Shown here: positions 12,411-23,599 of the stretch, in pieces
Numbering within the stretch: position 1 is the stretch's first letter
Layout of the letters: every line of letters starts with the position of its first letter
Source of the DNA: Nitrospirota bacterium
GTDB lineage: Bacteria; Nitrospirota; UBA9217
Length of the DNA stretch: 43,027 nucleotides
Assembly: GCA_020052615.1 (NCBI GenBank)
Contig: JAGVOT010000038.1
Coordinates: 1-43,027 of the forward strand
Direction: 5' to 3'
Translations under genes and position numbers: made by a program
The notes under the pieces: generated by a model
The model's input: the letters and a program-made list of their open reading frames with translations, nothing else
The model's database searches: none
What the model was told of the DNA's origin: nothing

Positions 12411-12911
12411 ATGATCGCCAAGATAAAGACCATCCGGGAGCTCCAGCCTCTTCTCACTATCCTTCGGGCGGCAGGCAGGAAGATCGTCTTCACGAACGGC
12501 TGTTTCGACATCATCCATACCGGCCATACCCGCTACCTTGCCATCGCTCGTTCCTTCGGCGATATCCTGGTCGTCGCCGTGAACAGCGACTCATCCGTCC
12601 GCACGATCAAGGGCGAGAAGCGGCCCATCAGCTCCCAGGCCGAACGCGCCGAAACCCTTGCCGCGCTCGAATCGGTCGATTTCGTCACCATCTTCGACGA
12701 GCCGGACCCGCATCGGGTGATCTCCGCGCTGCAGCCGGACGTGCTGGTAAAGGGCGGCGACTGGCCGATCGAGAAGATCATCGGGAGGGACGTGGTCGAA
12801 GCGCGCGGCGGGAAGGTCGTGAACGTGCCCTACGTTGAGGGTGCTTCTACAACGGGGATCATTGAGAGGATCGTAAGGATATACGGCGAAGGTGGGAAGG
12901 TGGGAGGTTGA
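12411..12911 (+). CDS. rfaE2: D-glycero-beta-D-manno-heptose 1-P adenylyltransferase
   Basis: Encodes 166 aa, matching the C-terminal adenylyltransferase half of HldE as a stand-alone protein. The nucleotidyltransferase motif is TNGCFD (28-33) and HTGH (36-39); the late VKGGDW and ASTTGIIERI segments are also typical. It forms ADP-heptose for the LPS inner core. The last seven residues (GEGGKVGG tail) are encoded by the left arm of the inverted repeat at 12888, so the gene's natural end appears altered by that insertion. Confidence 0.92.
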   Translation: MIAKIKTIRELQPLLTILRAAGRKIVFTNGCFDIIHTGHTRYLAIARSFGDILVVAVNSDSSVRTIKGEKRPISSQAERAETLAALESVDFVTIFDEPDPHRVISALQPDVLVKGGDWPIEKIIGRDVVEARGGKVVNVPYVEGASTTGIIERIVRIYGEGGKVGG

Positions 12912-13367
12912 GAAGGTGGGAGATAAGCCCCTCGAACGGAAGAAGTCTCTTCGCCACTTCAGAGACCTTGAAGTATATCAGATGGCTTTTGCAGGCGCGA
13001 TGAACATCTATCAACTCACGAAGAATTTCCCTGCCGATGAAAAATATTCCCTTGTAGACCAGATACGAAGAACATCGCGTTCGGTTTGTTCGAATCTCTC
13101 TGAAGCATGGAGAAAACGCAGATATCCGGCAGCTTTTAAGAACAAACTAACAGACTCGATGCAGGAGGCATCAGAAACTCAATGCTGGCTTGAGTTCAGC
13201 CTATCATGTGACTACATCAGAAAGAATGTATTTGACAAGCTCGATGCTGAATACGAAAGTGTTCAATCAATGCTCAATGTAATGGAAAAAAGCGCTGAAA
13301 AGTTCTGTTATTGACGTTTTTCGTGCTCTTTCCCACCTTCCAACCTTCCCCCCTTCCCACGTTCCCG
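12888..13367. mobile_element. Four-helix-bundle cassette with inverted octad arms
   Basis: The left arm (12888-12922) and the right arm (13327-13367), read inward from each outer end, align as GAAGGTGGGAAGG(T/G)GGGA, GGTTG, GAAGGTGGGA over about 36 bp with few mismatches. Both have an 8-nt period. The only gene between them is a four-helix-bundle protein. The arms also encode the C-terminal tails of the two convergent flanking genes. No transposase is present. A similar empty arm pair is at 15984-16063. Confidence 0.7.
12916..13314 (+). CDS. Four helix bundle protein (S23/IVP-like)
   Basis: Encodes 132 aa from GTG 12916, which has GGGAGG at 12902-12907, inside the repeat arm. GTG 12892 is an alternative. 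Recognisable family features are the first helix HFRDLEVYQMAFAGAMNIY, NFPADEKYSL, the conserved QIRRTSRSVCSNLSEAW and EASETQCWLEFSL. This family (23S rRNA intervening-sequence protein, also related in fold to the Avd protein of diversity-generating retroelements) has no agreed function. Codon use is AT-rich compared with rfaE2 upstream, suggesting transfer. It sits exactly between the inverted arms. Confidence 0.87.
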   Translation: MGDKPLERKKSLRHFRDLEVYQMAFAGAMNIYQLTKNFPADEKYSLVDQIRRTSRSVCSNLSEAWRKRRYPAAFKNKLTDSMQEASETQCWLEFSLSCDYIRKNVFDKLDAEYESVQSMLNVMEKSAEKFCY

Positions 13368-13742
13368 CTTTTCTGCCTTCTCGTCCTCGATCTCATACAG
13401 CGTATCATCATCAAACCCGAAATAGTGCCCTATCTCGTGCACGACCGTATCGAGCACGATTTCCTCGATCTCTTCGGCTGTTCGCGCATCCCTTTCGATC
13501 GGCCCCTGGTAGATCACGATCCGGTCAGGCAGGACGTTCCCGTAGTTCCACTCCCGCTCGGTCAGCGGCGTTCCCTGGTACAGGCCGTACAGGCCATCAT
13601 CCTCGATCCCCATGTCGTCGAGCACGTCCTCCGGAGGCTCGTCCTCGACTTCGATCGCGATATTCTTAAGCGCGGCCAGGAACTTCTTCGGAAGCCGTCC
13701 GAGCGATCGTTCGACGAGCTGTTCGAACTTCTTTCGGTCCAT
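13308..13742 (-). CDS. Minimal zinc metallopeptidase family protein
   Basis: Encodes 144 aa from ATG 13742, with GGAG six bases before it. The zincin motif HEIGH (102-106) is followed by Asp111 (FGFDDD), as in the family of short predicted metallopeptidases with HExxHxxGxxD. The family normally ends soon after this motif. Here residues about 118-144 form a highly charged tail (many K, E, R, G), and residues about 126-139 are encoded by the right arm of the four-helix-bundle cassette. It converges on and overlaps the four-helix-bundle gene by 7 nt. Substrate unknown. Confidence 0.88.
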   Translation of the reverse strand: MDRKKFEQLVERSLGRLPKKFLAALKNIAIEVEDEPPEDVLDDMGIEDDGLYGLYQGTPLTEREWNYGNVLPDRIVIYQGPIERDARTAEEIEEIVLDTVVHEIGHYFGFDDDTLYEIEDEKAEKRERGKGGRLEGGKEHEKRQ

Positions 13743-15971: not shown

Positions 15972-15983
15972 TTATAATCCGAT

Positions 15984-16063
15984 GGTGAGAGGTTAGGGGG
16001 ATGGGAGGCTGAGAAGAACCACAGCGCCGCATAACTTCCCAACTTCCTACCTTCCCAACTTCG
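15984..16063. repeat. Empty octad inverted-arm pair
   Basis: The left arm (15984-16017) contains TGGGAGGCTGAGAAG, matching TGGGAGGTTGAGAAG in the left arm of the four-helix-bundle cassette in 14 of 15 bases. The right arm (16033-16063) is its inverted partner (CTTCCCAA, CTTCCTAC, CTTCCCAA; 8-nt period). Only about 15 nt separate them. It looks like a cassette that lost, or never had, the gene. It lies between eno and the phosphohexomutase gene. Confidence 0.7.
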
Positions 16064-16070
16064 TGTATGA

Positions 16071-23472: not shown

Positions 23473-23570
23473 CTACATCCCCGTTCGCCGCGTGCTGATA
23501 GCGGCCCCGGACGAAGATAAAAAATGCGGGCATTTCCTGGCCATGAAAAGGCAGGCCTTGCTGTAGAACC

Positions 23571-23599
23571 ATTCACTCGACACTCCGCACTCCGCACTT
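23571..23599 (-). repeat. GTGCGGA heptad repeat after STAS gene stop
   Basis: Minus-strand units GTGCGGA, GTGCGGA, GTGTCGA, GTGAATG begin two bases after the TAG of the STAS gene. Same word and orientation as at 21441-21478. Confidence 0.75.

Follow-up and report, generated by a model that had tools for sequence, protein, structure and literature searches.

An S23/IVP gene between inverted word arms at a Nitrospirota gene junction: a putative free-standing mobile element of the intervening-sequence type

The element between rfaE2 and a zincin gene

The DNA analysed here, called the window, is a stretch of 43,027 nucleotides from a Nitrospirota bacterium (GTDB lineage Bacteria; Nitrospirota; UBA9217), namely positions 1 to 43,027 of contig JAGVOT010000038.1 in assembly GCA_020052615.1. 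Within it, the junction of two convergent genes, for an rfaE2-like cytidylyltransferase and a zincin-like metallopeptidase, is occupied by a small gene of the S23/IVP family that lies between two inverted arms. The features of this region, together with a gene-less hairpin some distance away, are as follows.

12411..12911, forward strand: rfaE2-like cytidylyltransferase gene (PF01467); its 3' end enters the left arm
12888..12921, forward strand: left arm, tandem 8-nt words GAAGGTGG/GAAGGTGG/GAGGTTGA/GAAGGTGG; includes the final residues and stop of rfaE2
12902..12907, forward strand: GGGAGG, ribosome-site-like, within the left arm (read from the sequence)
12916..13314, forward strand: S23/IVP four-helix-bundle gene, 132 aa from an inferred GTG start (PF05635, TIGR02436, AlphaFold2, PDB 2gsc/2rld)
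13308..13742, reverse strand: zincin-like metallopeptidase gene (PF06262); the right arm, together with the stretch between that arm and the IVP stop, writes its 3' end
13331..13364, reverse strand: right arm, inverted copy of the left-arm word (TTCCCACC...); codes part of the zincin C-terminus
15981..16065, no strand assigned: compact gene-less hairpin, GAAGTTGG, of the same word class as the element, between enolase and the next gene

The arms align over 34 nt without a gap, are 82% complementary, and both have an internal period of 8 nt. When the two 200-bp flanks are aligned locally, the score is 23, which none of 5000 Markov shuffles reached (best, 19). (It should be noted that the same score was reached at 6 of 5000 positions drawn at random from the window with equal spacing, where overlap with the locus was not excluded.) The S23/IVP gene is the sole ORF between the arms, and no transposase gene is enclosed with it. 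Its product belongs to the S23/IVP family, matching PF05635 at 106.8 bits (curated cut-off 33.8) and TIGR02436 at 92.4 bits (cut-off 24) and having the four-helix bundle of 2gsc and 2rld. At 0.43, the GC content of the gene is below that of the window (0.57) and of rfaE2 (0.61). Its reading frame is open from an in-frame GTG codon at 12892, and a second in-frame GTG follows at 12916. Both codons lie within the left arm; the second is inferred to be the more probable start. Both neighbouring genes run into the arms: the rfaE2 ORF terminates in GEGGKVGG and a stop codon at 12911, inside the left arm, and the C-terminus of the zincin, which finishes in RERGKGGRLEGGKEHEKRQ, is encoded by the right arm, with the gene ending inside that arm or just beyond it.

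The first-pass annotation of this DNA had described matching inverted arms with an 8-nt period around one 'AT-rich' S23/IVP-like four-helix gene, with the left arm as the source of the ribosome site (GGGAGG at 12902) and with no transposase present. These points held, that on the ribosome site as regards its sequence and position. It had left undecided whether the four-helix protein or a helper in trans is the agent of movement, and this stays undecided.

The hairpin at 15981-16065 has a loop of about 18 nt and is separated from the IVP element by 3 kb; it is possible that it represents a non-autonomous or collapsed form of the element. The window also contains short ATTGCGG and AGTGCGG arrays (1815-1841 and 23570-23599) that have no IVP gene, and these two words serve as arm words of other IVP elements in this family of genomes.

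Arms, sites and words across genomes

Matches to PF05635 are found at six places in the genome of the window and at 1 to 11 places in each of 26 of the 41 genomes searched, a set made up of the window's own genome and relatives from its phylum. Most of these places are flanked by inverted short-word arms, with a word that varies from locus to locus. Among 74 full-length loci, the median score of a left arm against its own inverted right arm is 22, compared with 10 in direct orientation and 9 when left and right arms are taken from different loci. A scan of named genomes gave 80 further IVP loci, most of them again with arms, in the Desulfobacterota, Elusimicrobiota, Omnitrophota, Bacteroidota, Cyanobacteria, Chloroflexota, Acidobacteriota, Planctomycetota, Verrucomicrobiota and other phyla. 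At a threshold score of 15 or above, inverted arms of 7-8 nt words are present at 122 of 143 full-length IVP loci (85%) but at only 13 of 400 non-IVP ORFs (3%) taken as controls from the same DNA; about 15% of IVP loci lack arms detectable at this threshold. The best word period is 7 in 88 of 134 arms and 8 in 34. When inverted word pairs were detected independently of genes, 79 of 108 enclosed an IVP gene, and most of the remainder either were compact hairpins or lay next to an IVP element. (This is not a genome-wide rate, since the loci had been collected by an IVP search.) Word arrays distant from any IVP gene are common in these genomes (133 far arrays), and gene-less inverted word hairpins occur, indicating that arms can exist without the gene. 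Loci of one lineage are not independent, some being related by descent, and some of the cross-phylum cases come from metagenome bins that may include stray contigs. In the open-access PMC literature searched, no description of such arms around S23 genes outside rRNA was found; an earlier description elsewhere is not excluded.

Synteny of the convergent rfaE2-zincin pair is seen in 12 genomes from the family. The element is present in four of these, and six have a plain junction of 33-134 bp; the other two, G007 and G011, lack an IVP gene and yet have longer junctions, that of G011 measuring 226 bp. In the empty genome G004 the neighbours stop after IVKTYK and DEKARKKRKE, without extra residues, whereas in occupied genomes they are lengthened by the arms. 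No target-site duplication was seen at the rfaE2 site. The 345-bp junction of G007 (among L039-L047, L043 in particular) holds word arrays of several kinds and lacks an IVP gene; it could be a graveyard of elements or a product of nested insertions.

Empty sites were also found in Nostoc plasmids. The element L213 is absent from four related plasmids with flanks that are about 90% identical; homology on the left ends at 1468-1477 and restarts at 1967-1969. At this position the empty plasmids hold about 21-28 nt that are lost or altered in the occupied plasmid (about 20 bp missing), and nucleotide-level comparison of the Nostoc empty sites revealed no target duplication. At a second Nostoc site, the gene-less plasmids may have decayed rather than never having been occupied. 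In L222, a compact gene-less hairpin of the Nostoc word class (2084-2169) has an empty IVP site at a distance of a few hundred bases.

Closely related elements also occur at unrelated sites. L057 and L061, with 88% identity, are at unrelated sites of one genome and have kept their own word; L014 and L018 are 96% identical, and L085/L086, L002/L025 and L094/L090 are further pairs of this kind. The homology between such pairs stops at the arms. At one site common to two species (L076/L081), the gene between the arms has opposite orientations in the two, judged against the flanks. The IVP sequence of the window itself falls in a well-supported clade (99/94) with sequences from Desulfobacteraceae and Elusimicrobia. 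Taken together, these comparisons, which are the only kind of evidence available, show that the arms and gene are a unit that is present or absent at orthologous sites, recurs at unrelated sites with its own word, and has relatives in other phyla. That this unit is mobile is very likely; no movement has been observed.

The first-pass annotation had suggested that the ends of both convergent neighbours were rewritten by an insertion, and the G004 site bears this out. It had also proposed two comparisons. The first, of the rfaE2-metallopeptidase junction in relatives, gave the empty sites described above; the second, a search for further arm-bounded four-helix copies, was positive, since inverted short-word arms flank almost every IVP gene examined, both in this phylum and in many others. 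The outcome that it had named as refuting, namely the same gene without arms or arms that are equally frequent elsewhere, did not arise, given the difference between IVP loci and control ORFs.

The word is specific to the element: comparison shows that it is the same in both arms, common to close relatives, and different in distant ones. Within the phylum, word similarity is 0.72 for proteins with more than 70% identity, 0.44 for those with 50-70%, and 0.22, which is background, for those below 50%; for the two arms of a single element it is 0.75. Across phyla, the median is 0.50 when protein identity exceeds 60%, compared with 0.22. Thus GACGCGG flanks related IVP genes in the genome of the window and in a Pirellulaceae, a Pyrinomonadaceae and a Spartobacteria bin, and GAAGGTGG flanks both the window gene and a 73%-identical relative in a Desulfobacteraceae bin. 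In 14 of 18 pairs of same-site orthologs (p=0.004, with pairs that are not fully independent), an element's own two arms match each other better than they match the arms of its sister, which argues that both arms change together. Two near-identical elements of genome G026 (L015 and L032), each beside a CRISPR-like repeat array, have nearly identical genes and near outer flanks, and differ at about one-fifth of arm positions; the arms therefore seem to evolve far more rapidly than the gene.

The IVP protein and related systems

Ten pairs of IVP genes, some of them from different sites, have dN/dS values of 0.02-0.12, and the protein is therefore kept by purifying selection. Most members of the family are basic (median pI 9.0), the window protein only weakly so (7.8). 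N60, E63 and E87 are invariant in the alignment, and Q49, R52 and S56 are nearly so. AlphaFold2, run on the monomer, predicts four helices with a pLDDT of 95; the nearest solved structures are 2gsc and 2rld (TM up to 0.93), followed by the Avd protein of diversity-generating retroelements (DGRs), 4dwl (TM 0.73/0.89). A pentamer of the S23 family from Xanthomonas is described in literature cited by PMC4990558, and by analogy the window protein is likely to be pentameric as well, only the monomer having been predicted. Scans of Pfam, NCBIfam and PHROGs gave no match of the IVP protein to a transposase family, no catalytic site is recognisable in it, no match was found in a phage collection, and PADLOC did not place it in a defence system.

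The closest known kind of element is the 23S rRNA intervening sequence (IVS) with an S23p ORF, as found in Leptospira and Coxiella burnetii; each has one S23/IVP gene. Like these, the window element has complementary, stem-forming ends around that ORF and short tandem repeats on its 5' side, here the 8-nt words, and the total size (428 nt in Coxiella) and the sporadic distribution are similar. The Coxiella IVS has a 28-bp stem, with three copies of GACAGAT and a purine-rich site just upstream of the S23p ORF; the number of heptamers varies among strains, and the RNA is processed by RNase III (PMC4990558). A role of the IVS ORF in mobility was proposed by Ralph and McClelland in 1993 (as cited in PMC4990558); the Coxiella work judged the ORF expendable there (PMC4990558). 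The IVP elements differ from the rRNA IVSs in lying outside rRNA, between protein genes at junctions throughout the genome, in reaching up to 11 PF05635 matches per genome, in occurring in many phyla, and in having word arrays of a lineage-specific word on both sides. The window element, which sits between rfaE2 and the zincin gene, does not meet the requirement of location in an rRNA helix and is therefore a variant of the IVS rather than a member. Among the IVP loci checked, seven of eight rRNA motifs were absent and the other, a 10-mer, had four isolated matches; there was no sign of an IVP gene inside rRNA in this set, and this location was rejected for it. The lineage-specific word common to both arms, the pan-bacterial architecture, and the tie to the 23S rRNA intervening sequences all go beyond the first-pass annotation.

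Other systems share fewer properties with the IVP element. Avd has the same four-helix fold (4dwl) and pentameric relatives; against the Avd profile NF033474 (cut-off 80 bits), relatives of the window protein score only 20-29 bits and the window protein itself has no match. DGRs further differ in that no reverse transcriptase was found in the genome of the window and there is no adenine-specific variation. A classical insertion sequence has a transposase within terminal repeats and a target-site duplication, neither of which is met by the IVP element. The units of REP/RAYT systems and MITEs are likewise small, intergenic and bounded by inverted repeats, with compact gene-less forms, but their ends are fixed and recognised by a transposase, whereas the ends of IVP elements are element-specific arrays that enclose none. 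IVP elements do not share their ends with the Y1/RAYT genes inspected, which have other ends. Finally, tandem words of 7-8 nt, intergenic and often in inverted pairs, are known from Xanthomonas, Nostoc and Geobacter; inverted heptamer pairs have been reported in Xanthomonas (PMC4692102), and Geobacter metallireducens has octamer and heptamer sites that occur in pairs (PMC2700814). The relevant sections of that work do not tie these arrays to an S23 gene or to mobility, and offer G-quadruplex or regulator-site readings (PMC4692102, PMC2700814).

What the element may be

The reading preferred here, by a modest margin and with its mechanism and protein role inferred, is that the window element is a free-standing, minimal mobile element of the IVS type at a gene junction, with an IVP protein that acts on the word arrays. 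In this view, a four-helix IVP multimer, probably a pentamer, would recognise its own word array at both ends of the element and draw the two ends together, and host replication or repair enzymes would complete mobilisation without duplication of the target. The likeness of the arms would be maintained by selection for recognition together with exchange between the arms. The arms would also provide the ribosome site, and in a transcript they could pair with each other and enclose the gene; insertion behind a stop codon would thus be well tolerated.

The main rival, which remains possible, places the element at the RNA level: the arms would pair in a transcript, RNase III would free the loop as in the 23S rRNA IVS, and the RNA would spread through a reverse transcriptase in trans, with the IVP protein playing an Avd-like part. 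In its favour, the arms pair together in the sense-strand minimum-energy fold at 63 of 67 loci (the fold of the window element has a z of -5.3), the IVP fold matches that of Avd (4dwl) and there are weak matches to Avd profiles, in 52 of 70 cases the gene upstream reads in the same direction, and RNase III cuts the Coxiella IVS (PMC4990558). Against it, no RVT_1 gene was found in the genome of the window despite its six PF05635 places, and 18 of the 26 IVP-bearing genomes have none (Fisher p 0.72); a reverse transcriptase was accordingly rejected as a general helper. Sense-strand G-U mismatches between the arms are not in excess (290 vs 253, sign test p 0.37), and a reading of selection for RNA pairing from them was given up. 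Nor is the variation of the words biased toward adenine as it is in DGRs; the variant rate is alike for all four bases (0.20-0.25), and DGR-type adenine mutagenesis of the words was discarded as well.

A less likely rival is a MITE-like passenger that is moved in trans by an ordinary transposase, for example of the RAYT/Y1 type, with the IVP gene as cargo. Of the 26 genomes with IVP genes, 25 have Y1_Tnp, as do 7 of the 15 without (p 0.0005), and the compact gene-less word hairpins would suit such a passenger. However, among 19 Y1 genes inspected, the majority are flanked by recurrent inverted ends of their own (GGGGTCAGGTCT, GGGGACGTTG), none of the 19 showed word-array arms, and G036 has nine PF05635 places and no Y1_Tnp; a RAYT/Y1 helper, which co-occurs by genome but has other ends and is absent from this IVP-rich genome, was rejected. 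Moreover, the word ends vary widely between elements, whereas the ends used by transposases are usually fixed, and strong purifying selection is unexpected for a gene that is mere cargo. (Many RAYT-like Y1_Tnp genes of the phylum, L188-L207, carry recurrent inverted ends, such as these two, near the ORF.) It is very unlikely, and already disfavoured, that the arms are static repeats, either born of slippage or serving as regulatory sites, beside a gene that is inherited vertically and often lost. Word arrays are indeed common apart from IVP genes, and heptamer and octamer arrays are known in Xanthomonas, Nostoc and Geobacter (PMC4692102, PMC2700814), but this reading is opposed by the excess of inverted same-word flanks at IVP loci over controls, by close relatives at unrelated sites of one genome, by cross-phylum relatives with the same word, and by plain empty sites. 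A beneficial inversion cassette, in which inversion of the gene by way of its arms would act as a switch for it or its neighbours, is also very improbable: the inverted gene in the same-site pair L076/L081 speaks for it, but this is a single case, any inverted repeat is expected to invert, and no recombinase lies inside. In three cyanobacterial plasmids (L208, L209 and L210, two from Nostoc and one from Tolypothrix) an IVP element lies directly upstream of a tyrosine recombinase gene, with the recombinase outside the arms; such a recombinase is also found in plasmids without an IVP gene, and it was rejected as a partner.

The DNA-level model, in which protein and word act together, is favoured over these rivals because word and protein co-evolve, the arms are alike, target bases are lost without duplication, the gene can be inverted between the arms, and there is no sense-strand G-U bias. 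The balance of evidence leans only slightly toward movement at the DNA rather than the RNA level, which is inferred, and it leans to a similar degree toward action of the IVP protein on the arms, an inference made without binding data. A bolder reading is compatible with the evidence and somewhat less likely than not: IVP elements would form a separate class of mobile element without a fixed end sequence, in which a lineage word is read by a dedicated four-helix protein that is not a transposase and that co-evolves with the word, while host enzymes are borrowed. The rRNA IVS would, on this view, represent one particular case, in which such an element landed in rDNA, and the gene-less hairpins would be non-autonomous derivatives.

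S23/IVP genes, annotated as 'four helix bundle protein' in many phyla, have remained without an assigned function ever since the description of the rRNA intervening sequences. Their usual flanking by arms of their own word, their inferred movement with these arms, and the strong selection on them suggest a testable role for the family, that of an element protein. IVP elements may account for part of the heptamer and octamer arrays of bacteria, and they constitute a natural series of protein-word pairs. On present comparative evidence, the IVP element appears, with some reservation, to be the free-living form of intervening sequences that have long been known only from rRNA genes. If it is true that protein and word co-evolve and that the ends can change, this would be an unusual way of defining a transposable end.
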